Shown: positions 1-64,000 of the stretch, piece by piece | How the letters are laid out: each line of letters opens with the position of its first letter | Position numbering within the stretch: position 1 is the stretch's first letter | Assembly: GCA_004123355.1 (NCBI GenBank) | Contig: SCHM01000004.1 | Coordinates: 1 to 64,000, forward strand | From: Amphirosellinia nigrospora | Lineage: Eukaryota > Ascomycota > Sordariomycetes > Xylariales > Xylariaceae | Direction: 5' to 3' | DNA: 64,000 nucleotides | The notes under the pieces: model-generated | Databases searched by the model: none | The model's input: only the letters and a program-made list of their open reading frames with translations | What the model was told of the DNA's origin: nothing | Program-made: the position numbers and the translations under genes

Positions 1-3000
1 TTTTTTTTTTTATTTTACTTTTAACCGCCGATTTTTTAATTTTTTATTTATTTTTATTTTTTTTTCTATTTATAACTTTTTTTTATTTTCTTTCTTTTTT
101 TTATTTGTTTTTTTATTCGTATTCTTATTTTTAATTACTTTTTAAATTTTTCCTTTGTTTGTTAATTTAACTTTTTACCCTTTTTTTTTATTTTTATATT
201 AATAATACTTCTTTTTATTTTTTTTGTACGCTTATTAATTTATTCGCTTATTTATTTTTTAGTTTAATATTGCTTAAATATAATTTTTTATATTTATAAA
301 CTTTTATATTGCTTTTTTAATTTTTTGTTTTTTTACTTTTTTTGCTATACTTTTTTTTTCTATTTATTTTTTTGACTTTTTTTTTATTATTTGTTTTGTT
401 TTTTTTTTTTATACTTTATAAATAATTTTTGTTTTGTTTTATAACTTATTCCGCTTAGCTTGTCCGTTTTTTTATATATAATTTTATAACTACTATATTA
501 TTTTTATATATATTATTACTTTAATTTTTAATACGTTTACTTTTAACTTTAATACGTTTGTTATTATAAATATTTGCCTACTTTTTTTTATTAATAATTA
601 TACGATCGCCCGTTTTGTTTTTATATTTTTAATTTGTATATAAAATATAATACTTTCTAATAATTTGCTATAATATTTTATTTTCGTTTAACTATTATAA
701 TATATTACTATTTGCCTTTTTTTACTTATTTATTGTTTTTTTTTTACTACTATTTATTATAAAACTTTTTTTTTTATTTTATTTTTAATTATATACTATT
801 ACACTTTATATTTTATATTACCCCGCGTTATTTTGCTTTTAAACTATTATCTTTCGCCCGTTTATATATTTATTAACCGCTTAAACTTTTTTTTGTTTGC
901 TAGCTATAATATTGCCGTTAAATATACTATTTATATTTTTACTTATATTAATTCTTATAACTATAATATTTTTGTCCGCTATTTTTTAAATACTTTACTA
1001 CTATTTAATATTACATAGTATTTATTTATTATTATTTGGTTTAACTAATTTATTATTCGTTTTTAGTTAATAAAATTCGCAAAACTACTTTTAACTGCTA
1101 TTTTTAACGTTATTAATACTAATCTCGCCCTTTTATACGGCCGTTTTACGCTTTATTTTATACAATTAATCCCTACTTTGTTATAACGTTGTTTAATATT
1201 TGCTTATAATAATAATAATAATACAATTATTACTATTATACTTGTTAGCCTTAAATATTACGCTAATAATATAAACAATATATTTTTCCCTTTTTTTATT
1301 TTTATTACTATTATTACCAGGCTTTTTTACCTTATAATTGTTTATAATACTAGCTTTTATACCCTTTTAAACGCTATACTTTTTCTTAATATCTTTTTTA
1401 ATTATATTTAAATATTGATTTATTATATTATACACCACTGCATTTTTTGCTCTTTTTTTGCTAACTTTATTATAACCCTTAACCTTTTGTTTTTTAACCT
1501 TTTTTATACCCGTTTTATCGCTAATAATATTATTAAAAACTTATACTACGCTTAATTAACTTTTTAGAACAACCTTTAATCCTTAAGCTTACTAAATAAC
1601 AACTTTTATATACTTCGCCCATAAATTATATCTTTTATTTATACTTTATATCTTATTTATTTATATAATACTATATTTATTTTATCTTTTTCCTGCTATA
1701 TTTTACCTTTTTCTTCGTTTATATTTTTATTTGCTTTTTTTATTATTTATATTTTAATACGCTAGCTTTTTATATATTTTTAAAATATTGTTTTTAACGT
1801 ATAATACTACGCTAATATTCTTATTTTTACCCTTATATACCTTAACGTTACTTTTTACATAGCTTTTATCACCGCTTATATACTTTAACTTTCTAGCTTT
1901 TATTAACTTATCCTATATTCTTGTTTTTTTTTACTATCCAACCTTTTATTAAATATTATTAATATTGCTAATATTCTTTTACGTTTCTCTTTTTTTTTTA
2001 TACTACCCGTTTAATTTTTACTTATTTCTTATTTTTGTTTAGCTACTATAAACCTTAACCTTAACCTTAACCTTAACCTTAATCTTAATCCTTTTTTTAT
2101 TTTTAAAAACAACTATGTTATTAGTCGCGCCGGCTACTATAAATATTTTATTTTAATATTTTTTTTTTTTTTGCGTATATAATTTAACTAATCGATACTA
2201 AAATAGTAATACTAACTATATATAATATATTACTAATTTTTTTACTTTTTATAATAAATACTAATAAATTACTTTTTACTTCTTTATTATATTTAACTTT
2301 TTATAATAATATATTATAATAGCTATTAATCCCTCTTTAACAAATAACCCTTATATTTTACCTTTGCCGCTTTTATTTTTATACCGCACTATAATTATTT
2401 TTATCTTTTTAACCGGCTACTTTTTTATTATATATACTAATACTAATAATACCTTTTAAAACCCCTGTAACCTTTTTCTGTACTTTGCTATTTATTTAGC
2501 GTTCTATTAAACCGTTTAATATCTAAATATAAACATAATAAATCGCTTAACTAATATTATATTTTAAATAATCCGGTTTATTATCCACGTTAACCTATTT
2601 ATACCTTTACTTAACGTTTTTTTATTATACTAGTTTATAATAAAACTTTATTTTGTTTTTATTTCTATTATATTATCTACTAATAAACTCTAATTAATTA
2701 CTAGTAATTTATTTTTTTCGTTTATAAATAATATATTCTACTATAACTATATTTATACTTTTTCTACTATACTATAAATTATAAATTATAACTTATTTAT
2801 ACTAAATTATTATTACTTATATAATAACATATCTTTATATTAATTAATTACCTTTAGCGCGTTTATTATATTATAAATTTTTTGCTTATATATATATAAT
2901 CGTAAAATCGCGTCTATTAGCGTTAATCCTCCGCTACTTATATTAATTAACGTTATAAATCGTATTATTATAGCTTTTACCCTCTTATAATGCTCCGCCA

Positions 3001-3340
3001 CTTTTTCGTCCGCTTTTTTTTTTATAAACCTTAATTTTTACGTTTTTATTATATCTTAATCCTTATTAATCTTTACTTTATATATTACTATTATTTTCGC
3101 TATAATAATAATAGCTAATAATTTAAGCATAAATTCTAATAAACTTAACTAACTTTTATTTGCCTAATAACTTATAACTATTAACCCGCTATATAATATA
3201 TTATAAAATTCGTTATTTCTTATTTTATAGTTTAATAATAATATATAAAATAATAATATTGCCCGCTTTAATTACCGAACTTATATATTAATCCCGCTTA
3301 TATTATCTCAGCAATAGTTAAGCTTATTTTTACTGTTAGT
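1..3340 (-). mobile_element. R1 repeat, copy 1 (degraded, cut by window edge)
   Basis: The reverse complement of this stretch aligns with 20660-23720 over about 3 kb, with mostly C/T and G/A differences and a few short indels. Landmarks include 2760-2990 matching 21000-21230, and 830-1160 matching 22740-23110. The plus strand is extremely T-rich (43 T in bases 1-60), so the minus strand is purine-rich and more likely to be the original sense strand. I could not name a protein: after mentally combining the two copies, more than one frame stays partly open. The element probably continues past base 1. It could be a DNA transposon, a LINE body or a retroelement interior; the family is unknown. 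Confidence 0.8.
2051..2091 (-). repeat. Degenerate CCTTAA hexamer array inside R1
   Basis: About six tandem hexamers of the form CCTTAA run on the plus strand, with C-to-T variants at the right end. It resembles a mutated fungal telomere repeat. However, the homologous position in R1 copy 2 (about 21890-21915) carries a shorter, more mutated version of the same hexamer. It is therefore an internal microsatellite of the element rather than a fossil chromosome end. Confidence 0.75.
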
Positions 3341-3343
3341 TAT

Positions 3344-3423
3344 GCTAAATATGCTTAATATAATCTATATTGTTTTAAATTAAACAACTTATAATATTAA
3401 TAATTATATTTTTGTTAATATAT
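3344..3423. repeat. 80-bp shared segment at the edge of R1 copy 1
   Basis: This stretch is repeated in the same orientation at 53006-53085. Over the 65-bp core (3359-3423 against 53021-53085) I count four differences, all transitions and no indels, far fewer than between the two R1 copies. It adjoins R1 copy 1 here and an R3 LTR at 53083. It may be an R1 terminus or a separate small repeat. Confidence 0.75.
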
Positions 3424-3513
3424 ATATTAAACGTTAGTTTTTTATGCCGGTTTCGATATTTTTAGCTTTATTTAGGTTTTATAGTTTTAACACGTATATA
3501 CGCTATACATACA
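3424..3513. other. Spacer between R1 edge and Ty3 element
   Basis: These 90 bp hold no recognisable feature. They retain more G than R1 and lead directly to the Ty3 target site. Confidence 0.5.
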
Positions 3514-3519
3514 TAATAA
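3514..3519. repeat. Left target-site duplication, TAATAA
   Basis: The six bases immediately outside the left LTR are TAATAA, and the same six follow the right LTR at 9266-9271. Ty3-type integrases usually give 4-6 bp duplications, mostly 5. The motif is low-complexity, so a chance match in this AT-rich background is possible. The exact fit to independently derived LTR borders supports it. Confidence 0.65.
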
Positions 3520-3728
3520 TGTGCGTGCTTATTAACCTATATTAAATAACCTATAAGGCCTTTACTATTGCGGTTTAGGCTATATAAATCAAGTCTTAAT
3601 ATACTAGGTTAGTTAATTAAGTAAAAGGCTAAGTTTAGGTTTCTATGGTAGGCTAAATATTTATAGCTATGGGGTGGGGCTGGCTTGTAATGCTTGCTAG
3701 GGCTTTGCTAGTCGCTACCCTAAAGCTA
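3520..3728 (-). repeat. 3' LTR of the Ty3 element (209 bp)
   Basis: It aligns base for base with 9057-9265, with no gaps. It begins TGTGCG on the plus strand; the partner has TATATA there, all by transitions. I count 31 differences, all transitions: at 17 this copy has the G or C, and at 14 the other does. The least mutated part is the G-rich run near 3671-3690. Confidence 0.95.
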
Positions 3729-3734
3729 TAACTA

Positions 3735-3745
3735 TTCTTTTCTTT
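3735..3745 (-). other. Polypurine tract next to the 3' LTR
   Basis: On the minus strand this reads AAAGAAAAGAA, an 11-base purine run ending six bases before the 3' LTR starts at 3728. A polypurine tract primes plus-strand DNA synthesis in LTR retrotransposons and is expected here. The six-base gap is a little longer than usual and may reflect C-to-T and G-to-A changes. Confidence 0.7.
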
Positions 3746-4390
3746 AAATAACTGCTTTTAGTTATCTATTTTAATTAGTATTTTTATAATAAAACTATTT
3801 ATAATTTAGTTATTTTATTATTGCTTTTAAGCGCTTTTAATCGTTTTTTAATATTATTTAGCTAGCGTACTATAAGCTCCGTATAAAGTGGCTATTATTG
3901 CTATACGTAGGAAATAGGTTAATTCTATTATATTTGCTTAGTAATTAAATTCTATTAGGGCTTTATAACCTATAAGTATTGCTATAATAGTAACTCGCTA
4001 TAGCTTATAGTTTATTATAAAAGGGTTTTATTTTATTACTACGCTAGCATATTTGCAGTATTTAGTTTCCGGGTACATAAGTTCAAATCAATCCTTTTTT
4101 CTTTTGTAAATAAGCTTTAATCTAGTTTTTAAAAGCTTTTAAACTATTAAAATAATTTTTTGCTATAAGTGTTTTATAGTTTTTTACTAAGCTTTGCTAG
4201 AATTCAACCTTTTCTTCTTTAGTTAGGTCTTTTATGTATTTAAAGATTTCAATAAGTAACTGTTATTAAGGAAATTAAGTGCTAAATAAAAGGAAATAGC
4301 TGCTATAGCTATTTAGCTTTGGTATCCGATTATAAATATTTATAGCTACTTGTAACAAAGTAGCTACGTTAGGGTATTTATATGCTAAAC
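3746..4390 (-). pseudogene. Tail of Ty3 pol after the integrase core
   Basis: This should encode the integrase C-terminal region and the end of pol. All minus-strand frames carry many stops, and I saw neither a GPY/F-type motif nor a chromodomain. Several TGCTA and AGCTT-rich runs remain. Confidence 0.5.
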
Positions 4391-4397
4391 CTTTTTA

Positions 4398-4580
4398 TAG
4401 CATAATTCGCTTAAGGTTTCCGTTTACTTTTTCTATTTTGCTATTACTTCTAGGTTTTTTAAGTATAATAAGTTTAACTATAGATCCCTTGCTTTAGTGC
4501 TATTAAATTGCTTTGTCACCTATAAATATGCTTCCATTATTGCTAATCTATTCCTTTGGGTACCTAAAAATTTTCCGATT
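4398..4580 (-). pseudogene. Integrase catalytic core remnant
   Basis: The minus-strand frame shows PKE*ISNNGSIF (about 4560-4527), the usual place of the second catalytic aspartate (SDNG/SDRG). The aspartate codon reads AAT, so Asp has become Asn by a G-to-A change. Further on, with a short disrupted stretch between, comes KPRSNSKIEKVNGNLKRIM (about 4460-4398), which fits the family's HP.(T/S)NG..ER.N block and keeps the catalytic Glu. Integrase joins element cDNA to host DNA. The core carries stops and a lost catalytic residue and is not functional. Confidence 0.85.
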
Positions 4581-4629
4581 TAGTAATTAGCAGTATTGTG
4601 TTTAAAAATAATATATCAGGTATTATAGC

Positions 4630-4740
4630 TACCTTTACCTATGCTATAGCATATTTTACATATATTAATATCTTTAATTATACTATAGATGTATAGTCTA
4701 TTGCCTAACGTGTTAGCGGTAGTAGTAATACTATAAGTTA
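4630..4740 (-). pseudogene. Integrase N-terminal zinc-binding remnant
   Basis: The minus-strand translation gives IIKDINICKICYSIGKG, which corresponds to the second half of the HHCC zinc module of Ty3 integrases (WPGM..DI..YV..C..CQ..K). The CxxC pair is intact at about 4662-4649. The histidine half upstream is not clear. It lies between RNase H and the integrase core, as expected. Confidence 0.7.
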
Positions 4741-5399
4741 TAGGTCTAACAACATTATTAATAGTGGCTTTATTAACTAATATTACTTGTATTTATTATA
4801 GCTTACTGTGCTATTAGCGTGATTTCCGGGTGCTAATACTACTTATTAATTTCGCGTATTAGGGTGCTAACTATAGCATGCCTTAGGTTAATATATATAT
4901 TTTTAACCTTTTGTAGTAATTCTAGTATTTCGGGGATTTTTAAAAGCGCTACTGCTTGATATACCGTTCTTATAAAGTATGGGGGTTTCCGGGGTCCGTT
5001 AGTACTAGGCTATTTTGTATAGTTTTCCTTCGTATATAATAAAATGCCTAGTTACCTACTAGGCCTCCAGATTTAGCGGCAACTTGCTATCAAACTTTAA
5101 GAATTTAAATATAGCTTGTAAGTCTATACGGTTTAGCTATTACAGTAGTTTAACTAACTATTTTTCTATATTCGGTAATATTTGCGTTTTAAGGTTGCGT
5201 TTTATTATTAAAAAGTCGTTTCGGGAGGTTTTAATAGCTAATTAGCTAATACGTTTAACTTACTTATATAAATATAATTCATATATTATAGTGCTCGATA
5301 GCATTTAAAAATCGAACTATTTATACTAGTTATTTTAATTTGCTTTTTATTATAAATAATAACTCATAGTCGGTACGAACAGTTATTTCTCTTCTTTTT

Positions 5400-5610
5400 A
5401 CTTAGTACTTTTAGTGCTATAATGCTAATATAATAGCTAAAAGCTTTCGTTCTTATGCTAAGTAATACGTTTAATAGTTACCTAGTTTTTTAAAAAAGTA
5501 TACTACTAAATAAAATATTGTTTTTTTTCCGTAAAAATACGGCTATATTAAGCATGCCCTAACGTATAGTTGGCTAGAATCCGTATCTATTACGGAGGGC
5601 AACCTCTAAT
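5400..5610 (-). pseudogene. RNase H remnant
   Basis: The minus-strand frame reads VIDTDSSQ (about 5595-5570), which carries the TDAS catalytic aspartate of Ty3 RNase H. It is followed after 20-odd residues by FFKKL and by ERKLLAIILAL (about 5455-5420), which matches the conserved ERELLAI block. RNase H removes the RNA template during reverse transcription. Several TAA and TAG codons interrupt it. Confidence 0.82.
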
Positions 5611-5639
5611 TAAATATTTTAATTATATATATAATTATT

Positions 5640-5840
5640 ATTTTTAATCGTTTGCTAAACTTTTTAGGCTTTTGCGTTTAATATAACTAGTTAGTTTTTC
5701 AGTCCTTTTATTAATGTTATAAATAATGCCGCAATTAGTAAATATTTATTAATTAAGTGCTTAAAATAGCCTACTATATTCACGAATCCACATACTTCGG
5801 TAGTTATTCTTGGCATCGGTCTATCTTTTATTACAGCTAC
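5640..5840 (-). pseudogene. RT thumb / connection segment
   Basis: The minus strand reads KVAVIKDRPMPRITTEVCGF, then a stretch with YFKHLINKYL, and ALFITLIKG. This is the well-known linker of Ty3-type pol (I..WP.P.....V..FLG...YYR.FI..Y...A.PL..L.KK). It is the longest nearly uninterrupted readable stretch in the window and sets the reading frame for the neighbouring domains. Confidence 0.88.
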
Positions 5841-5989
5841 TTTTACTAGATTTGCTTTAATTCTTTCTTAAAATATATAAAATTTTAAAAATATACCTTA
5901 GTTAACAAACATTAAAATTTCGTAGGGTTAATTATTATGCCGTACTACGCTAATTATTCGAATAGCATATAGTACTATTAATATAGTTT

Positions 5990-6330
5990 TTCTTATTTTT
6001 CCCTAAATATAAATATCGTTAAGTAAGCCTACTAGCTATTCTTTAAAAAGCTTTACAATCTCTTTTATTAAGGCTTAAAAAATAGCTAGTACGTTATAAA
6101 GTCCAAAAGGTATAACTAGCTATTTATATACTAAAAAGTATTATAAATGCTATTTTTCGCGGTAAAGGCCATATATTCCTATATACCAGTATTCATTTTT
6201 AAGATCTACAAAAATATACTACTTATAACCTATAGCCTTTTATATTTAGTCCGCTATGTTTAATAACAAATAGGCTCGCTTTTTTATAACTTTATTTAGT
6301 TCCTTATAATCGTAGCAAAATTACTATATA
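5990..6330 (-). pseudogene. Reverse transcriptase palm/fingers remnant
   Basis: Three conserved blocks appear in order on the minus strand: YDYKELNKVIKK (about 6315-6280; family DYR.LN..T), FVDLKNEYWYI (about 6215-6185; family LDL..AY), and LLNDIYI (about 6030-6005; family Y.DDI). The first catalytic Asp survives. In the YxDD box the first Asp reads AAC, so Asp has become Asn, again by a G-to-A change. RT copies the element RNA into cDNA. Frame changes between blocks suggest small indels or my frame uncertainty in low-complexity runs. Confidence 0.87.
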
Positions 6331-6994
6331 ATATTTTCTTGGTTATTAAAGTCAGGCTTAGTAGTTTCGCCAGGTCGCTTCTTTGGGGTTAATAATGCTG
6401 GCGCGCCCCATAATCCTATACCCTTTCTAATATAAATACCTAAGTATGCTTTAATAAATTCCTTTATAGTTTTTTTTATATAAAGCTATACCTACGGAGT
6501 AATAGCTTTATTAGTAAGCTATCCTTAATATCAATATAGTATTTATACGTACTATAATATCAATACATTGTTTAGCTAAGTTAAATAGGCCAGAGAATCG
6601 TTTTACTAGTTTTGCTTGTTTGTTTGCTATTTAAAAGTTCTTTGGCGTATTTTTATACTAAATTACTTTTATTTTTTCTGTTTTTTTTGCGTTATAAGTT
6701 ATTTTTATAGCTATATTAACTAATAACTGTTTTAAAGGTTTAAATAAAGGTGCTCTATTAAATTTCGTCAGTTTAATTGTTTTAATATCTTTTATATAGC
6801 CAAAAACGCTGCCCTATTTATAAAAAATACGCTTCTTTAAAGTTATATTACTAAAAAACGTACGGTCTAACATAACGCTTCTAATTACGGTCCAAAGTTC
6901 TATAGTACTTTTATTATATAAACTATGCTATAATTTCGCAGTTTTTTTAACTATTAGTCTAACTCCTCTAATGCTATATATAGTGCTTTATTTT

Positions 6995-7095
6995 TATAAT
7001 TTATAAAGCTAGAGCTTTAAAGCTAATAATTGCGAAATATAACAGCTTGTACAACCGTAGTCCCAAAATACTATAAATATTGCCGTTATTTAGTT
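6995..7095 (-). pseudogene. Retropepsin-type protease remnant
   Basis: The minus-strand frame gives FIVFWDYGCTSCYISQLLAL at about 7080-7020. This fits the retropepsin block (.FIDSGA.G.FIS..LA). The active-site Asp codon (7062-7060) is intact. It lies upstream of RT, the usual Ty3 position. The enzyme would cleave the Gag-Pol polyprotein. Confidence 0.72.
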
Positions 7096-7099
7096 AGGC

Positions 7100-9056
7100 C
7101 TAAACAAGTTATAGCGATCGTTATAACTATACTTTAATTTATTTTTTTCTAAAGTTATTTTACTACTTTTATTTAATTTAACTACATAAATAAGGCTATC
7201 TTAAGCCTTACTAAATAAATCTTCTAGTTCTTAATTGATCCGGTCGTTTTTTAAGCGCTTTATAGCACTTCGTTTAAGTTTTTCGGGGTTTTTATTATTA
7301 TTTTCCGTAAAGTATACTTGCTTTTACAGCTTATTTCTAAAAAATTTATATTTAGTTCTAAATTTCTCGAACTTATTAGCTAAGTTATATAATATAGTAT
7401 GCCTTTAATCATAACGGATTAGCCGGATTAGCTTTATAGTTTCGTTATTTTAAGCTATTATACTTTCTTGCAGCAGTCTTTAGCCTAATAGCTAGGCTTA
7501 CTATAATTAAAATATATATTATTTGCTACTTTCATTACATACTTATTATCGCAGGTTTGCTATTCTATATTATTATTATTAACTTCGGTAATATAGCTAA
7601 CCTCCCGGCTATCAGTATAAGGGTTTAAAATAGTGAGCATTAGTGCTTTTAGGGTTATTTCCATATTATCAACTAGCTAGATCTAGCCTACGGCAAGTTT
7701 GCTTACTATACTTCCAATAATATTATAATTATAGTAAAGTATTATTATACTTTAGAATTATATAATAATTTCGGAAATACTATAAATTTTCGGTTTACAG
7801 AAGTTATAATAATTATTCCTAATATTTATACTACTTCTTCTATAATTTGGCCTATATTCTATTCTTTGCTAAAACGCTCTATATTAAGCCAAATACTTAA
7901 GGCATACATAATAAGCTTATTAACTATAACGTTACATATTTGCTAGGTATTTCAAATACTTCCCGGCAATCGATAGAAACCTCCCGTAGTTTCTAAAATA
8001 GCTTATATATGCTTTATTTTAAGCTGGCAACAATCTTACAAATATTATTAAAAGGCTATATAGTACGTTATAAATATTTAGTACTTAGATTACTACTTTT
8101 AGAAAATCGATCTAAATAGCCGCTATATTGCTATTTTTAATAAATAGCGCTACTTATTAGAAATTACCTGCTAATTCAAGTATAATTTTTTTAGTTTATA
8201 ATTCGTAGGGCACTAAGGCCTATACTAATTATACTTAGATTTAACGTACTTTATTTAGTATAGTATAATCAGCTTAAATTAAACGTAGATTAAGTAGTAT
8301 AATTACTTTATTTTTATCTTTATATTTGCTTAGTTTAATAGCGTCGCTTACTAAAAATACGTTAGGAAAAATAGCTTAAACTCGCTATTTTTATCAGGTT
8401 TAAATAAAATTTAAGCCTCTATATTTCTATAGGTTTAACAAAAATCCTTTAATTATTTCTGATTAGTTACGCTAGTTAGTTATCGTATATATACCTTATT
8501 TATTCTTTTAGTACCTACGAGTACATATAAAAGGTCTACTATTATACTTATTAGTATACCCGCTAGCGCTAGTAGCGCTAAAGTTATTGCTAATTTTATT
8601 GTTACACTTATTAGTATAGTTATAATACTGCTATTTTAGTTTTGTAGACCTAGGTCTCAGAAACTTTTTTTATTTCTATTAACATAGCTTCAAATCGTAA
8701 GTCTATTTCGTTTTTAATTAGTCGATTCGCTTAGCTATATTAGTTGCTAACACATTAATATAGGTATTATAGCTTGCTATATTTATAGCTAATAGAACGC
8801 CTATTAGGTCATCCAACGCTAAGCTGCTTATATCTATTATAAAGCCGCTACTTTCTATTTTAAAATAAGCTCCCGTAAAATCTGCTATTACGTATAAAAA
8901 AATATTGCAAAGTATACTTTTTAGGATAGGTTTTAATAAAGTGTTTAATTAGCGTAATTGCAAGGTTAGATCTTTATAGGTTAGTCGGCTATAAGGTTAT
9001 CTATAATCGCATAACTAGTTTTAAATAAAAGCTATAAAGCTATATAAATAGCTATT
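7100..9056 (-). pseudogene. Gag region and 5' leader of the Ty3 element
   Basis: About 1.9 kb between the protease and the 5' LTR must hold gag, but no capsid or CCHC zinc-knuckle motif could be read with confidence. A short readable run, FEAMLIEIKKVSET, lies near 8650-8700 and could be part of a coiled-coil N-terminal Gag segment. No tRNA-like primer-binding site is visible just below 9057. Confidence 0.5.
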
Positions 9057-9265
9057 TATATATATTTATTAACCTATATTAAATAACCTATAAAGCCTTT
9101 ACTATTGCGGTTTAGGCTATATAGATCAGGTTTTAATATACTAAGTTAGTTAATTAAATAAAAGGCTAAGTCTAGGTTTTTATAGTAGGCTAAATACTTA
9201 TAGCTATAGGGTGGGGCTAGCTTGCAGTGCCCGCTAAAGCTCTGCCAGTCGCCACCTTGGAGCCA
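9057..9265 (-). repeat. 5' LTR of the Ty3 element (209 bp)
   Basis: This is the partner of 3520-3728 and has identical length. On the minus strand it begins TGGCTCC and ends TATATA (TG...CA in the unmutated form, since the partner keeps the corresponding G and C residues). The CCCGCTAAAGC and CTGCCAGTCGCCACC runs keep bases mutated in the other LTR. Confidence 0.95.
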
Positions 9266-9271
9266 TAATAA
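9266..9271. repeat. Right target-site duplication, TAATAA
   Basis: Identical to 3514-3519 on the other side of the element. Confidence 0.65.
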
Positions 9272-11950
9272 TAGCCTTAACACGTTCTATATACTTTTTA
9301 ATTATTTTACCTTGTTACTCTACATAAAATAGCTTTTTGTTTAAATTATTACTTATTTTCTGCCGCTCGACAATATTTAACATAGCTAATCTAACTATTT
9401 TAAGCTAGCATATATATATACGCGCTAAATTACTTGTTTTATTATTAATAACACGTATACTAACTATATCTCTTTATTTATAAGTTTATTAGCTTTTTTT
9501 TCTAGCGATTATAAAGTTATTACTAACTATTTTTAGTTAAACTTTTATAAATAGCTTAGCTACTACGTACGCCTTATTTATATTTAATAAAATTTTATTT
9601 AGCTTTTAATAGCTTTTTTATCCTATCGGGCTTAATCTTATAACTTTATTATATTAGTAATTTTATAATATAACCGTTTATAAAATAGCTTTTTATTACT
9701 TTTTTAAGTATTACTATTGCTTTAAACCGCTTAATTAGTTATTTTAAATAATTTTTATAACCCGTTTATTTGTCCTATATACTAGTATTAAATCTTATTA
9801 ACTTATACTTTACCTTTTCCTTTTACGCTACTTATAACGGGCCTTTTACTATAAAACCGCAAGTTATACTACTTATAAAACTTATGTAAATATTTTTATA
9901 CGTCTTAAATACTTTAATATACATAACTATATAGCTGTTCAGGTTTTGTTTTTATTTCGAATATATATTTTTTATTATTATTAAACGTTTTTAATAACAA
10001 GTATAATATTATTATAAATACTAAGTATTAAATTTTTCTAGCAGTTGCGCATAATATTTAATTAAACGTTAATTTTTTTATTATTTAAATAACGATTTTA
10101 TATATAGCTATATTTAAATGCCCATATTATTTGTATAAATAAATAATAATAGCGCTAAATAATATAACTACGTAATATTGCTTATAAATAGCTACCTAAT
10201 ATAACGCCACAACTTAAATATATTAATAAATGCTTGCATATTAATAATATATAATAAATAATATAAAATAAATTAATTAAAAGTTTTAAATAAACTAGTT
10301 AATTATATAAACTAAATTATATATATAACCTTACTTTATAGTTTACCTTAACCTATATTAAACCTTAACTTATATTTAACTTTAACCTAACGTTTTTATT
10401 GCTATATATAGTTAATAACCACGTTATATTAAAAACTAATATATAAATTAAAATTGCCGGATATAGTTTTATATATAAACTTTTATTTTTAGATTAATTT
10501 ATTATTGTTTTAGGTCGACTTAATTAATATATTTATTTATAATTAAATTAATTTAATATGTAGGTCCGCGCTAGTAATTTAAACTAATAACGGGCAACGG
10601 CCATAATTAAATCGACTTAACTTAAGCTAGGAATACTAGTTAAAATAGCTAACCGATTTAAACGTAATTAATTATATAATTACTATAATATTAAAGTAGT
10701 TATTATTATTATTATATATTTTTAGCATTTTTTTTTTTAAAAATATATATAAGTTAATGCGCAACTATTAATTTATTAAAGGTAATATAAGTTAATATAA
10801 ATAAACTATTATTATATTAAATATAATAACTTTAATATAATAAATATTAATAATTTTAGTTTTTTATTCGAATAAAATAAATAAAGCTTTAAAAACTAGT
10901 ATAATAATTATTATAAGCTTATTTTAGGTTTTTTTTACTTAATATAAATATAAATAAACGTTAATAAATAAATTAAAGCAATAAAAACTAATAAATATTT
11001 ATTAAATATTAAATTTTAAAACTAATATAATATAATTATTATTATTATATTAAAGCAAAAAGCGTTTTTGTGCGGTTAGTTAGGTTTATTTTATAATACG
11101 TTTTATAGCTTGTTATTAAATATTTTAAAGTTATTTTTTAATACGTTAGCTAGTTACTTAAAATAAAAATATTAAGTATAAATGCTTACTAGCTTTTATA
11201 TCGATTATAATAAGGCGGCAGTAAAATTAGTAATTTTTTGTTTAATAAAAAATAAGCTTTAAAAAACAAATTAAAACTTTTAATTAATATAATATAAGTT
11301 AATTTATTATTGTTATATTAAACGTAATAAACCCGAATTAAATTAATAGTTTTCCGTTAAATATAAAAATATTATAAAAATTAATAAATAAATATATTAG
11401 TTTAAAAATAATTTTAATATATAGTAGGGCGAAATATTTAGCTACTAGTTTTATTAGCTTTTTAATTTAAAATAAACTTTAAAGAATAAATTAATACGTT
11501 CGGCTAATAAAGTTTTTTATTAAAAGCTAATTTTAAATCTTTTCCGCTTAAAATAACTTTTATTATTATATATAAAATATTATTAAAGACTTTATAATAT
11601 ATAAAATAAATTATTTATATTTATTACGCGAAAATTAATCTTTTATTTTTATATTATAGCTATTATTTATAGCTTAAATATTATAGCTTTAAATAAGCTT
11701 TATAATAAACGTAATAAACCTTAATATAATAGTAGGATTATATTCTTAGTTTTGCTTATAAATATAAAAGAAAGCTATTTTAAAGGTTTTTTTTAGTTGA
11801 TTTAAGTTATATAAACGTTATATAACGAATTAAAGCCTTTAAAACTAGCGTAATATTTATTACTATATACTTAGCTTAAGTAGTTATCCCGAAAAGTTAT
11901 AAATATTTTACGCAATAATAAAAATCTTTAATACGTACTATAAGCTTTTT
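9272..11950. other. Heavily mutated intergenic/repeat debris
   Basis: No gene or domain is recognisable. TA-rich throughout, with very few CpA or TpG. It contains the 17-bp tandem array at 10328-10395. I could not link the rest to another part of the window. Confidence 0.6.
10328..10395. repeat. Four tandem 17-bp units
   Basis: The units start at 10328, 10345, 10362 and 10379. The best are ACCTTAACCTATATTAA and ACCTTAACTTATATTTA, which differ by a transition and a transversion. The first and last are more diverged. It is a small minisatellite of unknown origin. Confidence 0.65.
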
Positions 11951-16550: not shown

Positions 16551-16670
16551 TAATAAGCGCCCGAAAACTATCCGCGAAAGCCGAAGTAAAATATACTATA
16601 TATAAAACGGCGCGATAGCTAGCGCGATTAAAACAGCAGTAAATAACGCGCGCGCGGCGTAACGTTTTTA
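16551..16670. other. CpG-dense patch with TATA-like motif
   Basis: Base composition jumps to about 42% G+C (51 of 120), mostly as CpG, including an uninterrupted CGCGCGCG run near 16648-16656. A TATATAAAA motif lies just before CGGCGCG near 16600. TpG and CpA are still scarce, so this looks like a mutated remnant of formerly CpG-rich DNA, for example an LTR or promoter, not an untouched insert. No coding reading is seen. Confidence 0.6.
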
Positions 16671-56300: not shown

Positions 56301-58580
56301 CCTAAGAATTTTATATTTTTTAATATTATTTATAAAGCTAAAGTAATAAATCATATTATTAGTATAATAACTAAAGCTAATAAACTAGCTTTAAAAAACG
56401 AAAATTAATAATTAATAATATTTTAAAACAAAAAATAGTTTATCGGTTATAGTTTTTTTATAACGTTAAAACTATTTAATAAACTTTTAAAATAGCTAGA
56501 AAATAAAAAAGCTTTTTTTTTTTTATAAAATTAATAGCTAGCCTAACGTTTTCGATAAGTTTAAAAAACGCTTTAAAATAAATTTACTTAAAAAATATAT
56601 TTTAGTTTAGCTTAACAATATATTTGCTAAAAGTTTTTTTTTAATTAAAGTAAAAGTTTATATTCGCTTAAAAAAAATTAAATAATAATTAGTAAATCTA
56701 TTTAAAATCTTGTTTAATATAAAATATAAATAATTTTTTTGTTTTAAATATAAATATAAATTTTATACTTAAAACCTTTTAATAGCTATTTATTATAATA
56801 TTTATTAATTTTTTATTTAAATAAAATAAAAAGTTTTTTTATTAATTTTTAAAATATATAAAATAGCTATAAAAAACTTAAAATTTTTAAACGAATAAAA
56901 TTTACTTAATAATTAATTTTAAAATATTATTTTTAAAATTAAATTTATATATTATATTAAAAAACTTATATTATAAATAATTAATCTTTTTAATATTAAT
57001 ATAAAAGTTTTAGCTATTATATTTTTTTAACTTTTACAGCTTAATAATTTTATAATATATGCTTTTATAAACAAACGTTTTTAATAAAATAATAAAATAT
57101 TTATTACGCTTATTAAATAAAAAAGCTTTTTAATAAATAGTTTATTTTAAGCATTATTTATTATAAATATTATAGTTATAAAATATATAATCTTTTTATA
57201 GCTTTTTATAATTTTAAGCGTTTAATAATAAATATCCGGGATATCTAAAATTAAATTAATAAAAAACGTACGTATATTTTATTTTTAAAAAAAACTTATA
57301 GCTTAAAATAATAAAAAAATTTCTATAAATAATAATAATTAATTAAAATATTTAAAGCGCTTAAAAATACTTCGTAACTTTATACTAAATAAAATATAAA
57401 AACTTATAAATAGTTTTATTTATTATTTTTTTTTTATTTAGCATTTTTAAGGCCTAAAATCTTTTGTTCTAAAAAAATTAAATCTAAAAACTTTAAAAGC
57501 TTTTATAAAATTATATAAAAAAACCAGAAAATATAATAGCTAATTTTAACTATTTAATATATTTAAACATAATAAAAAAATAATAAAGTCCTTTTAAAAT
57601 ATATATTAATAAAATAGCAAAGTTTATTTAAAAAATAATTAACTAAACATTTAAAAAATTATTAAACGTTTTATAATAATACTTTATTTTTAAAAAATAT
57701 TAAACTTATTTTAAAAAGTTTATTAATAAAATTATCGCTAGCTAAAAAACGCGCTTTTTTAATATATATAACTTAAAAACATACTAAATATATTTTTAAT
57801 AAAAACGCTTTATTCGTTATAAAGCCTAAAAGCTAAAATAGCTCTACTAAGCCTATATAATTTACTGTTTAAAAACTATCGCTTTAATTAGTTAAAATTA
57901 CAAAATTAAAAAACTTAAAAAAATATTAAATAATAAAAAAAACAAAAAGCATAAAATCCTAGCAATTTAACTTTTTAAAATTAAAAAAAATCCTTATAAT
58001 ATAAAAATTAAAGTTGCTTTTTTTATTAAAAGTTATTATATTACCACCGCTATTCGATTTATTAAAAATATTACTATAAATATTAATTTATAAGTACTTT
58101 TTTAAATATTTTACCTTATAAGCTTTTAAATACGTAAAAATTACTTTTTTAGCTTACCTTTTAGCTTATTTTAAGTTTTTAAAATATTATATACTTTTAA
58201 TACACTTAAACATAATAATTAAAATATTTATAGCTAACTTAAAAATACAAAAAAATTAGTTTTAAATTATAAATAATAAAGACTTAAATATATTTATAAA
58301 TAAATATTTTAGTTCTTTTAACAAAACTAGTAAATAAATTTTTTTTTTATATTAAAAGCTTATAAACTTTTATTAATAATTATAATTTAATAGCAATAAA
58401 TATTTATAAATATTTAAAAAAAAAAATAAAAATACTATAAAATTATAAAAATAATTTTAAAATAAAATAAATAAACTATTTTAAGCGATAAAAGTATTAA
58501 TAGTTTAAAATGCTTTTTAGCTAGTAATAATAGCTTAAAAACAATTATGTTTATACAAGTTATTAATTTTAACGATAATA
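53370..58580. other. Mutated repeat debris
   Basis: 5.2 kb with no recognised gene, RNA or domain. Pyrimidine-rich at 54955-55060, otherwise TA-rich. Nothing links it convincingly to another part of the window. Confidence 0.55.
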
Positions 58581-58692
58581 ATATGCGCGGGCAAAAAGTA
58601 TACGCGTACGCGCACATACTCGCCCTAGCGGGCGCGCACCAGCCACCGCGTGGCTGGCGCTTGGTCTGTGCGTGTGGCTTCGCCACACATAT
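58581..58692. other. GC-rich triple-hairpin island
   Basis: 70 of 110 bases (58581-58690) are G or C, against roughly 12-20% nearby. It holds three successive perfect stems. CGCCC/GGGCG spans 58621-58634 with loop TAGC. CCAGCCAC/GTGGCTGG spans 58639-58657 with loop CGC, and two more pairs form beyond one mismatch. GTGTGGC/GCCACAC spans 58672-58688 with loop TTC. An 8-bp palindrome TACGCGTA lies at 58601. The outer ends ATATGCGCGG and CCACACATAT form a 10-bp inverted repeat with two transitions. CpA and TpG are abundant, so the island has not been RIPed. It resembles GC clusters or double-hairpin elements known from fungal mitochondrial DNA, but its context is nuclear repeat DNA. Function unknown. 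Confidence 0.88.
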
Positions 58693-58699
58693 ATACACA

Positions 58700-59056
58700 A
58701 ATATTATTTAAACCTATAAAATTTATATAGATCTAAAAACTTTGTTTTTATTTTTTTTTAATATATAAATTCTACTTATATTTTACTATATTAAATAGTG
58801 CTTTTACTATTCTATTATATAAACTATATTAAACTATTATTATTATTATTTATTATTATTAATTAGCTTTTTTTAATAATTATTATTATTTTAATAATAT
58901 AAATCCGTTAATAAAATTATTAATAGATTATTTAATTCGCTATTTAACTATTGCTAAAAACGTTATTATTTTAAAAAATAACATTTTTAAGCAAGTATTA
59001 GCAAGCATTTTTAATATACTTTTACTTTTTTTACCTTTTTTATTAAAGCTAAATAC
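58700..59056. other. AT-rich spacer
   Basis: No feature except TTATTATTA-type microsatellite stretches around 58838-58862. Confidence 0.6.
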
Positions 59057-59434
59057 TTTTATAGTTATACGTAAATAGCGTATTCGAAGCCCGAAATTAA
59101 GGTTATTATTAAAGTGCAAACTTTAATTAACTTGCGGTAATACGCTTAATTAAAATAATAAAGCGTATATTTTAGTATAAACTTTTATAATTATACATAA
59201 GTAATATGTTCGAAGTTTAAAATTAAGGTTATTATCAGGGTATAAATTTCGGTTAGTTTGCAATAATGCGCTTAACTAAAGTAATAAAGCGTATACTTTA
59301 GTATAAACTCTTATAATTATACGCAGATAATATGTTCGAAGTCCGAAATTAAAGTTATTATTAAGGTATAAACTTTAGTTAGCTTGCGGTAATACGCTTA
59401 ACTAAAATAATAAAGCGTATATTTTAATATAAAC
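59057..59434. repeat. Three tandem 126-bp units
   Basis: Units 59057-59182, 59183-59308 and 59309-59434 are exactly 126 bp each, with no gaps. Pairwise I count 28 differences (1 vs 2), 17 (1 vs 3) and 21 (2 vs 3), every one a transition. Conserved words include TTCGAAG and AATAAAGCGTATA, and a TATACTTTAGTATA inverted motif is best kept in unit 2. No open frame crosses the units. It is a RIP-mutated minisatellite or tandem internal repeat of a mobile element. Confidence 0.93.
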
Positions 59435-59699
59435 TTATAAAGCGTTAATAAGCTTAATAATATACTTTTATATTTTATTTTATAATATAAAGCAAACGTA
59501 CTAAATATTATAAAACAAATATAACAAATAACCTTGCTAGCTTATCTAAATATAGCGTATATTTAATTTTTAATCTTTTTTAATTCTTATTATTTATAGT
59601 TTATATTTACCTCGTTTATTATATTAAAAAGCTTATATTTAATATTATACTAGAAAATAAAAAAGTTTATAGTTTAAAAAAATAAAATTTATACTAAAA

Positions 59700-62300
59700 C
59701 AAAAATCTATACTATAAATAAAAGCAGAACAATTTATATTATATTAATAATAGTCTAGTTAAAACTTTTAATATTACCTACAAAATTAAAAAAAAAAATC
59801 AAATAATAAATTAATTAATTAAAAAAACCTAAACATATAATAAAGCTTTATAATAAATATATATTAATATAATTAAACAAAACAAAAATATTAACAACTT
59901 TATTAAACTTATATAAAGCTAAAATATAACAACAAATATAACGCTATAATACTTAATAACTTATATAAAAATATATAACGCTTTATATAAAATAAAAAAT
60001 ACTTCGATAAAATTAAACAATCTAACCAATAAGTAATTAAACAATTTAGCTAATAAATAGCCGGACAATTTAGCTAATAAGCATCCCGAAAAAACAAAAG
60101 CAAAAGTCCTTAAATATACGTCGAAAAAAAATATATAAAAAAAACGCTATTATAAATAACAACAAAAAAAACAATACCGATAGTTATACTTACTTATTAT
60201 AATATATTTACTTATATAAAAAATCAAACAACTAAAAAATAAACCTTTTAAATCTTAGTTTAAACTTAAACTTTAACTTAAATAATTTATTAAACAAAAA
60301 AACATTTTATTTTAAATAAAAAACGCAAAAAATAATATTAACTTTATAGCTTTAATAATACTAGCAAATATAAATAAGCTTAAACGTAAATAATTAATAC
60401 TTTCAACCTTTTATATAACAACTTAAATAACTTAAAAATAATTATAAAAAAAAAAATATTATATTTATTAATATTTAGCTTTCAAAAATCGCATAAAGTT
60501 ATTTTTTAAAAATTTTAAAATAAAATTTACTAATAAATAATAAATCTTTTTATTATTCTAAACCTTACTAACAAATCCTATAGTTCTTTAATAAAACAAC
60601 GAAATTATAGCAATCGAAAAAACGAAATAACAAAAAAAAAAATAAATAAAGTCCTATAAAAACTAAAAAAAAAATTCTTTTTAAACTTTAACATTATAAC
60701 CAAACAATTTAAAAAAAACGAACTTATTATATATAACATTTATCGAAACAAATATATTTTTCCTTAATATATAAAAAAACTATAATATACCTAGATTATA
60801 AAACTTATAAGCAATAATAACTTAAATTAGCGAAAAATAATATTATAAATATATAATAATATATAACTAAAGTTAAAACAATTCTTTAAACTTTTTTAAA
60901 ACAACTAAAAATTTAATAAATATATATAATAAATCAACAAAAATTAAAGCAATATATAAAACCTAGCTTAAAAAATTATCGGTTATAAAAATAAAAGCTT
61001 ATATTTATTTAATAACTTCGTTAAATTTTTATCCTTATAAAATCGTTCGTTCTACGGATATAAATAAAATATTAACAACAAACATAACTATATATATAAT
61101 AAATTATACAACTAATTACGCGATTAATTTTTTAACAAATATTAACCACGCTGTAGTAGTTTTAATAAAGATTTATAATATAATAATTATAAATAAAATA
61201 AAAATAATTTATATTAAAACGAACAATATTATTAAAATTACCGCTTAAACTATTATTAAAAAATAGTAGTAATAAATATAATTTAAACCGATTAAAAAAA
61301 ATGTATAACCGCGACCGAAATAATAATAAACGCAAAAATAGCCGCAACTAAAAACAACAACTATAAAACAATAACCGCAACAAGCGCAACAAACAGGACA
61401 ATAGCCATAAACGTAACAATTAAGATAAACAATATAACAATCGTAATAACTATAATAAAAAAAGTAATAAATCACGCGTATACTAAATAATAATAATAAA
61501 TAATTAATTAATTATTATATATTTAAAAATAAAAATAAAAACGCAACTAATATTATATATTAGCTAAACTAAGACTTTATTTACTATAAATATTATATTA
61601 AATTCTAAACATAAAAAAAAAAATCGAGCACTTTTATAAATACTATCTAAAACTAACATTAAAAAAAATTAGCACTCCGTCCCTATTAAACCCTAAAAAA
61701 CAAACTTATAGTTATTATAACGAACTTTTCCTTTCTTGTAATTAATTATTTAGTTATTTTAAACATTGCTAAAAAGCATAAAAAAGGATAATACGCCAAC
61801 TTAATACCACATTTAATCGAAAAAATAAAAAAATACCTAAAAAGCTTAGCTAATAAAAAACTTAAGCTAAACAAACAAGCGTAAACTAAAACTAAACAAA
61901 TATTAAACAATAAAATCGAAATAAAAAAATACTAATATATAATATAAAAAAAAACTTTATATATTTTAAATATACTTATTTTTGGTTTAAAACTAAAAGC
62001 TTATATAAAACAAAAGTATAAAAATATATAGCGACCTAAAAATAAGCATAACTTATATCGGTTATAAATTCTTTAATATATTAAAATATATAACCGAACA
62101 AAAAAAAGCACTACTAAAAACTTAAAACTAAGAAAAATTAAACTAAAAAATAAACATATTTTATATTTTATTTTAAAAGTATAAATATTAAAATAAAGCC
62201 GCAATATAAAAATTCTATTATTAAAGTTAAGTTATAAAAAACTTATAGCGAATATATTAATTAATAATAATTTTTTTTTCTTATAAAAAGCAAATATATA
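59700..62300 (+). other. G-poor, A/C-rich block with degraded coding-like stretches
   Basis: In 59881-60000 the plus strand has 13 C but only 3 G, so G was lost while C survived. Two plus-strand stretches read for 40-70 codons with few stops. 61271-61485 is rich in Asn, Lys, Arg and Gln, with three TAA codons that could derive from CAA. 61755-61940 gives a Lys/Leu-rich stretch. Because A/C-rich DNA always yields such residues, this supports an old gene or Gag-like region only weakly. No domain is recognised, and the minus-strand open frames at 61162-61475 look antisense to it. Confidence 0.35.
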
Positions 62301-63590
62301 CTATATATTAAATATTATATTATTTTCCGAATTAAAAACTTTATAATAAACTTTAACGTAGTTATAAAAATATTCGAATATATAAAAAAAATAAACAAAA
62401 ATAAAATATATTTAAATAGTAGAAAATTAGCTTATATAACCGTAAACTATAAGCATTATTTATTAATTAAAACTTTTGCTTTTTTGTAAATAAAATAAGC
62501 TTAGCTACTATAAATATTTTAATTAACGTAAAAACCTTATAAGTAGTATTTATAAAAAATATTTCTAAAAACTAATTAAAATTAATAAAAAATAAAAATC
62601 GAACAAATATAAAAAAACAAGTATATTAATTATATATAATTTTATTAAAAAAGCGCTAAAAGCTTTTATATTTGCTATAGCTATTATTATAAATATAACT
62701 AATAATTTAATATAAAAATTCTACTAAATAATATTATTTTATAAAGAAATAGCTTAACTATTTTAACCTCCGATAAAAAAAAATACTAACGTTTTAATAA
62801 TCTAAATGCTAAAATTAAAATAACGCTTATAATTATAATAATAGTAGCAAAATATATCTTATTTAAAAGTATATTAATTATTAACGAACTAGTTAATATT
62901 GTATTTATATAACTGGATTTATTTAGATTATTTATATTTTTTTTAATATAGTAAAAAAATATAATTAACGAAGCTAATAATATTTATAATATTAACCTAG
63001 GCTTAGTATTAATATTTAAATTTTACGCTTAAAATTATTTAAAGTAATATTTTATATTTTAGCATTAAATAATTAACGAACTTATTTAAAATAATAATAA
63101 AAAAAAATATATATATTTTACGTAAAATAAATATTTTTGCTAAAAGTTTTTAAAAAATCGTAAAATTTTTTAATATTTAGAAAATAAAAGCATAACGATA
63201 TCCTGCTAAACAAATAGCTAAAAATATTTCTAGTAAAAAGTTAATAAATTAAAAGCGCTAAAATAAACAGCTAATCTTATTTATTTAGCTGTAAATATAA
63301 CGTTTTAAATAAATATTTCGATAATTTATATAAAAAAAAAAAAATAAAATAAATAAACAAACTTATTTATTTATATATTTTTTATTATTATATAAAATCC
63401 GTTTTTAATAAAGATAACTTATATAAATAAAAAAAACGTATCGTTATTAATTTATATAGCTTAAACCGAATAATATATTAATAATTATTTATTATTTTTG
63501 CAAGCAAAAATAATCTCGTTATTATAAACAAAAGTTTTATTATAGTTGTCGATATAATATTTTTTTTTATTAATTTTTATATATTTAAAC
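62300..63590. other. Mutated repeat debris
   Basis: No recognisable feature. TA-rich, frequent TAAAA words, isolated CpG. Confidence 0.55.
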
Positions 63591-64000
63591 TATAGGGATA
63601 AGTTGTATAGTAATAAGTCCTAAGGTATTAAAAGTATATAATATAGAAATAATAGGATTTTAGAAATATATATATTATACTATATAAAAGTTTATGGATG
63701 AAATATTTAAAGTATTTAAACATTTTTATAGATATTTTATTATAATATTATTATAATTTATTCGGATATAGCTAAAAATTATATAAAAATATTACGTATA
63801 ATATTTAGTTTTTCGAAAAAAAAAAACTCGTAATATTTTTTGCGAAAATTATTTATCGGATATTTTTTTAATTAAACTTTTGTCGGATTTAAAGTTAACG
63901 GCGCTTAAACTTACTAATATTAATAGCTGACGTTGCTACATTTTATAACTTTGCTTTTTTTAAATAATTAAAGTTTTTTAAACAATATATATATATAAAT
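63590..64000. other. Compositionally distinct right edge
   Basis: From about 63590 GG doublets and G-bearing words return (TAGGGATAAG, CCTAAGG, TTATGGATGAAA), and CGGAT recurs three times (63760, 63857, 63883). This may be the start of a less-mutated element or unique DNA continuing beyond the window. No coding frame or RNA is seen. Confidence 0.45.

Follow-up and report, generated by a model that had tools for sequence, protein, structure and literature searches.

The GC-rich island near the right end of the window (the whole 64,000-nucleotide stretch of Amphirosellinia nigrospora DNA analysed here) is the first ~105 bases, probably the U3 region, of a 215-bp long terminal repeat (LTR) at 58579–58793. 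We take it, with near certainty, to be the U3 end of a 5′ LTR belonging to an LTR retrotransposon of ~8.2 kb that inserted with a 5-bp target-site duplication and was later mutated by repeat-induced point mutation (RIP). The finding is explained by the remnant of an ordinary LTR retrotransposon, and the apparent island in a desert is ordinary retrotransposon anatomy viewed through RIP. What stays of interest is the local resistance to RIP, which can be measured, and a U3 built of hairpins.

The sequence-only reading described a GC-rich island in an AT desert with three successive perfect stems and an extra palindrome, and these features are real. G+C amounts to 62.5% across 58581–58692, against 11–17% in the 1-kb blocks over 42–58 kb, and the top 60-base GC peak of the whole window falls in the island (0.73). 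All three stems are exact, and the palindrome TACGCGTA is present. Perfect stems of at least 5 bp cover 50 bases of 58579–58699 against a mean of 12.9, with none of 1000 Markov sequences as high. For stems of at least 6 bp, 10 of 1000 Markov sequences are as high and the window copy exceeds 990; the corresponding islands of copies L017 and L010 exceed 1000 and 982 of 1000, respectively. The DNA folding z-score of the window island is -2.4 (equally good in 5 of 200 shuffles), and the scores of three islands range from -2.4 to -3.4. Elsewhere in the window, 60-base GC peaks of 0.45–0.60 occur at 3661, 4941, 5541, 6361 and 9181, with another at 16601, and positions 1–10000 carry about 15–28% G+C per kb, mostly above most of the desert.

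The borders first drawn for the island, and the 10-bp imperfect terminal inverted repeats taken as its ends, do not delimit a unit; the unit is the LTR (Table 1). Its termini read TGATA...TATCA in the cleaner solo copies and mostly TAATA...TATTA where mutated. The 3′ LTR lies beyond the window, and the whole element occupies C6:58579–66796 on the window's contig. The two LTRs share 88.3% identity and differ by 25 transitions and 0 transversions. Eight LTR pairs were read in the genome, each in the same orientation and 7.5–8.0 kb apart. Target-site duplications of 5 bp flank all eight, seven of them exact and that of the window pair matching in 4 of 5 positions. The elements thus display the paired direct repeats with TG...CA ends (eight pairs) and the constant short target duplication that characterize LTR retrotransposons.

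Table 1. Positions of the LTR, its palindromic features and the adjoining parts of the element in the window
Feature	Position	Strand	Remarks
Target-site duplication (5 bp), 5′ copy GATAA	58574..58578	+	3′ copy C6:66797-66801 = AATAA
5′ LTR, 215 bp	58579..58793	+	Partner 3′ LTR C6:66583-66796
GC-rich palindromic island of LTR	58579..58683	+	Probable U3, a label suggested by position
Palindrome core CGCGT/ACGCG	58603..58612	+	20 bp, perfect in many cleaner copies (GTGTGCGCGTACGCGCACAC)
Hairpin CGCCC[TAGC]GGGCG	58621..58634	+	GCGCCC[TGGC]GGGCGC in L017 and others
Hairpin CCAGCCAC[CGC]GTGGCTGG	58639..58657	+	Stem 11 bp in L017, L024, L031; loop triplet variable
Hairpin GTGTGGC[TTC]GCCACAC	58672..58688	+	
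Possible TATA-like element AAATATTATTT	58699..58709	+	Putative function
Mutated fifth LTR hairpin TAAAAAC[TTT]GTTTTTA	58734..58750	+	Cleaner copies: TGGAGAC[TTC]GTCTCCA
5′ leader and RIP-degraded interior	58794..64000	+	Extends past the window to C6:66582
Candidate primer binding site, mutated: TAGTGCTTTTACTA	58796..58809	+	Unmutated C4 cousin: TGGTGCCTCCACCG

Copies were searched for in the 48.1-Mb genome to which the window belongs, assembled in 11 contigs. The 112-bp island query gave 35 matches, and two whole-LTR queries gave 41 and 40. Merging yielded 48 LTR matches measured at the loci examined, on nine of the 11 contigs; some of them (L026, L043, L045, L046, L047, L051) are truncated, diverged or in advanced decay. 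The multiple copies that the sequence-only reading suggested looking for are therefore present, with recurring stems. Nearly all island matches share a sharp left border in the orientation of the query, TGATACGCGC or its mutated form TAATACGCGC. The flanks to the left are unrelated for most copies, and paired 3′ LTRs share the interior end of the element there. To the right of the island about 90 more bases are shared, and cleaner copies end in ...CACCATATCA. By a loose criterion (85% agreement, with C>T/G>A allowed) the island is present in 44 of the 48 LTR matches; the four without it (L026, L043, L047, L051) are truncated, decayed or diverged. No island match was seen outside an LTR match among the 35 and the 48. 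Sixteen solo LTRs carry exact 5-bp duplications, and most of them are far less mutated than the paired LTRs. Two loci have unusual surroundings: at L015 (C6:6545379-6545969) a 3′ LTR and a solo LTR stand in opposite orientation about 155 bp apart, and at L046 (C7:584818-585023) the LTR end runs into telomere-like repeats, TTAGGGTTAGGGTTAAGGTTA, inside the contig.

The LTR pairs, target duplications and dispersed copies identify the island as DNA of a mobile element, but the element is the retrotransposon. A separate short palindromic element, such as a GC cluster, double-hairpin element or MITE inserted in an old LTR, would fit the compact hairpins and the GC contrast. It is very improbable, since on its left the island ends exactly where the LTR does, next to the target duplication, and the island occurs, together with the downstream LTR part, in both LTRs of the eight pairs and in the 16 solo LTRs. 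The LTR context also argues against a mitochondrial origin, whether as a NUMT or as a GC cluster. A vector or assembly artefact is at odds with dispersed copies whose flanks and target duplications differ, and a plasmid collection gave no match; NUMT and artefact together can be virtually dismissed.

The desert to the right of the island is the interior of the retrotransposon, and the island does sit, as had been proposed, beside RIP-type repeat debris, here the degraded interior of its own element. The interior sequence 60600–62000 has matches of 79–85% identity inside the other seven pairs, one in each (40 of 167 candidates were scored), and a further one at C5:7471376, between LTR matches C5:7459330 and 7481900. 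Many weaker interior matches of 65–76% are probably AT-rich chance. By eye, the 5′ leader contains tandem repeats of ~130 bp at about 59075–59450; similar repeats occur in L019 and L032. In L035 (C6:4946096-4956003) a block of higher G+C (0.28 per 500 bp) lies ~4.5–5.0 kb into an element whose rest has ~10% G+C. The block has a coding-like open frame and is possibly a later insertion.

An unmutated relative of the LTR, with a TGG-type primer site and leader, was found on contig C4 (L045/L055, C4:9318049-9319062, minus strand) in DNA of about 50% G+C. This cousin also holds a unit matching the tandem repeats of the leader. A search with its leader matched only the cousin itself and the window element, and no more element sequence was found past the leader at this locus. 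The adjoining open reading frames look by eye like a HET-domain gene. Two bases past the LTR of the cousin lies TGGTGCCTCC, a TGG-type candidate primer site, which is present in mutated form in the elements. In a search for the tRNA primer, two acceptor patterns matched 9 and 5 times in the forward direction, compared with 14 and 2 times for the reversed control, and none of the matches was tRNA-like by eye.

The interior reading frames have been destroyed by mutation, and neither reverse transcriptase nor integrase nor gag was identified in the following searches. Genome profile searches with PF00078 and PF07727 placed none of the matches listed (32 and 16) inside the eight elements, and stop-to-stop pieces of the interior (five and seven pieces) gave nothing relevant against Pfam. 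When four proteins of the same genome that bear a reverse transcriptase were compared by tblastn with seven of the eight elements, the best match, a YxDD-like stretch in three elements, had an E value of 0.16. This match is not significant, because 7 of 200 shuffled queries score as high and 58 of 200 give co-located hits in at least three elements. An Rfam search of the window gave no match at the gathering thresholds.

RIP is a premeiotic process that depends on methyltransferases of the RID/DIM-2 type, and the genome has three DNA-methylase loci. From these loci and the mutation pattern we infer that the element was mutated by RIP. The differences within the eight LTR pairs comprise 217 transitions and 2 transversions. 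The eight leaders, compared with the unmutated cousin over 1348 columns (two blocks, 169 of the 640 cousin bases, picked for alignment without large gaps), show 437 C>T/G>A changes, 5 reverse transitions and 9 transversions. CpA is the most mutated context in the LTR outside the island, and CA and TG are at 0.31 of expectation in the desert. The changes are thus the repeat-specific C>T/G>A, with a preference for CpA, of a RIP target.

The island had been described as RIP-free with intact CpA, and this is incorrect: in the window copy, set against the real copy L010, mutation has reached 5 of 18 island CpA sites. The weaker statement, that the island is less mutated than its neighbours, stands, given that 11 of 11 CpA sites are mutated in the rest of the same LTR. 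For such counts nine real solo copies with hardly any mutation, rather than a consensus, served as references, of which the best was used for each copy, and the CA-repeat tail between the island and the rest was left out of both. Among the 16 paired LTRs, 138 of 309 CpA sites are mutated in the island, as compared with 149 of 169 in the rest; subfamily variation of U3 could both simulate mutations and reduce homology. CpA mutation in the island is therefore about half that in the rest of the same LTR, a difference shown statistically. Eight further mutated copies have 99 of 149 in the island and 79 of 83 in the rest. The resistance is partial, as the heaviest-hit copies lose the island (18 of 19 CpA sites mutated in L050 and 16 of 18 in L052).

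Seventeen solo copies (the 16 and L030) show only 21 of 333 CpA sites mutated in the island and 33 of 187 in the rest; these figures are low by construction, because nine of the 17 are the references, and part of the mutation in the rest is subfamily difference. Two solo copies are well mutated downstream (L013, 7 of 11; L015 at C6:6545753, 9 of 11). That solo LTRs are for the most part cleaner probably reflects a length (~215 bp) insufficient for repeat recognition, or formation before RIP acted. The sequence-only reading had offered an arrival after RIP, a length too short for recognition, or protection. The solo LTRs agree with short size or early formation, and the window copy with protection in the form of a partial, local resistance; the freedom from RIP that all three were meant to explain did not hold.

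Context accounts for part of the sparing. Desert mutation strongly spares C next to G: in the desert (10001–64000 without the LTR) GpC stands at 4.58 times and CpG at 3.1 times expectation, and the index of retained C, C/(C+T), has values of 0.885 for GCG and 0.004 for TCA. At four control loci outside the desert the single-neighbour spread is far narrower (0.43–0.65). The island is dense in G-C-G and in other C contexts spared by desert mutation, and, being rich in C after or before G, it owes part of its sparing to plain context. An explanation by composition only, in which the island consists of sites that RIP spares and local protection is absent, is quite possible though somewhat short of probable. 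It agrees with the mutation of island G-C-A sites in only 14 of 79 cells and with CpA in the CGCAC context being among the most spared sites. The same trinucleotides, however, fare differently outside the island: CCA is mutated in 64 of 111 cases in the island against 54 of 61 in the rest, ACA in 44 of 80 against 43 of 46, and in the leader 40 of 56 GCA cells are mutated.

The deficit also persists after correction for trinucleotide context. Expected rates were taken from the leaders of the same elements, rates that may be inflated since the cousin used for comparison is a diverged relative (74% identical to the query over LTR positions 24–214). The ratio of observed to expected mutation is 0.35 for the island and 0.91 for the rest in 5′ LTRs, and 0.48 and 0.81 in 3′ LTRs. 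In all eight 5′ LTRs (Wilcoxon p 0.008) and in seven of the eight 3′ LTRs (p 0.016; both tests on rounded ratios) the island has a lower ratio than the rest; the exception is the 3′ LTR L048, in which island and rest are equal (0.77 and 0.75). With CpA only, the island has ratios of 0.47 (5′) and 0.71 (3′), compared with 1.12 and 0.99 in the rest. Mutation drops with local G+C over 37 CpA sites (Spearman -0.67); the same trend inside the island is not significant (18 sites, -0.28, p 0.27). The extra local deficit beyond trinucleotide context may stem from the GC-dense duplex, variable U3 homology or wider context.

Shielding by hairpin or cruciform structure would suit the observation that the island is both the most hairpin-dense and the least mutated part of the LTR. 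Within the island, however, CpA sites are mutated about equally in stems (83 of 175) and outside them (54 of 111; leaving out the terminal TG, 39 of 95), and the fifth hairpin, in the downstream part of the LTR, is heavily mutated in the window copy. We consider such shielding quite unlikely, and prefer to invoke composition together with a regional effect of unexplained nature, rather than protection by the hairpins themselves.

Another candidate is a fading of RIP toward the outer border of the repeat, where the island of the 5′ LTR lies. The two LTRs do differ in the expected direction. CpA mutation of the island is 55 of 144 (0.38) in 5′ LTRs and 82 of 142 (0.58) in 3′ LTRs, while that of the rest is 81 of 86 (0.94) and 69 of 83 (0.83); the CA-repeat tail has 32 of 64 and 48 of 63. 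Yet 15 of 16 LTRs carry a mutation at the outermost CpA (position 2), and sparing of the island extends to the 3′ LTRs, where it faces the interior. The edge effect alone is therefore insufficient, and as the explanation of the island it is improbable to a similar degree as hairpin shielding; it probably adds to the main effect. The paired LTRs of the eight elements form a natural experiment in which edge, context and local effects of RIP can be told apart.

The palindromes of U3 are best seen in the cleaner copies, which have up to four perfect ones and another hairpin downstream. The series consists of a perfect palindrome of 20–22 bp, GCGCCC[TGGC]GGGCGC, a stem of up to 11 bp, and GTGTGGC[TTC]GCCACAC; the loop triplet of the third is CGC, GCA, TAC, CAC, TGC or AGC. 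All five hairpins and palindromes are present in L017, and other copies have fewer, down to one in L029. The diverged cousin L045 is without perfect U3 stems and L046 keeps one. The stems recur in many copies, and L024 retains its 11-bp stem through changes on both arms. The changes in L024 are no proof of selection, because the two arms of a palindrome present RIP with identical context. In an active element the palindromes would most likely have acted as promoter or upstream sites in U3 and, in the RNA, as stem-loops close to its 3′ end.

A more speculative idea, which we hold with considerable doubt, is that the palindromic U3, dense in GpC and CpG, is a RIP-refractory promoter module (RIP at 0.35–0.48 of expected beyond di- and trinucleotide context), so that a possibly regulatory GC island persists in erased heterochromatin, with the clean solo LTRs as a scattered reserve of such islands. 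Should the added resistance of U3 be borne out, composition alone could let transposon promoters survive RIP, and it would bear on the retention of regulatory sequences in AT-rich fungal compartments.

The mitochondrial GC clusters and double-hairpin elements of fungi are likewise short, GC-rich and hairpin-forming in AT-rich DNA. Unlike them, the present sequence occurs on nine contigs, is bounded by an LTR with 5-bp duplications and belongs to an 8-kb element. In the portion of the literature surveyed no description of a hairpin-rich, RIP-resistant U3 was found, and the nearest systems are crapaud and GalEa. For the crapaud element of the Podospora anserina complex, RIP is reported to have mutated the LTRs of full copies but to have left most solo LTRs untouched, a sparing attributed to small size or early recombination; variation there, including subfamilies, is concentrated in U3, which makes up the 5′ half of the LTR (PMC10787394). 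The present element is similar in its mutated full-copy LTRs, mostly clean solo LTRs and variable U3. It differs, by the published description, in that its U3 is palindromic, GC-rich and under-mutated within RIPed full copies; the words hairpin and GC-rich are absent from the main text of the crapaud paper (PMC10787394). The fungal GalEa Copia elements carry a Conserved Hairpin Site after the 5′ LTR that replaces the primer site (PMC5445492). Both are fungal LTR retrotransposons with a conserved hairpin near the LTR, but in the present element the hairpins lie inside the LTR and are followed by a TGG-type candidate primer site.
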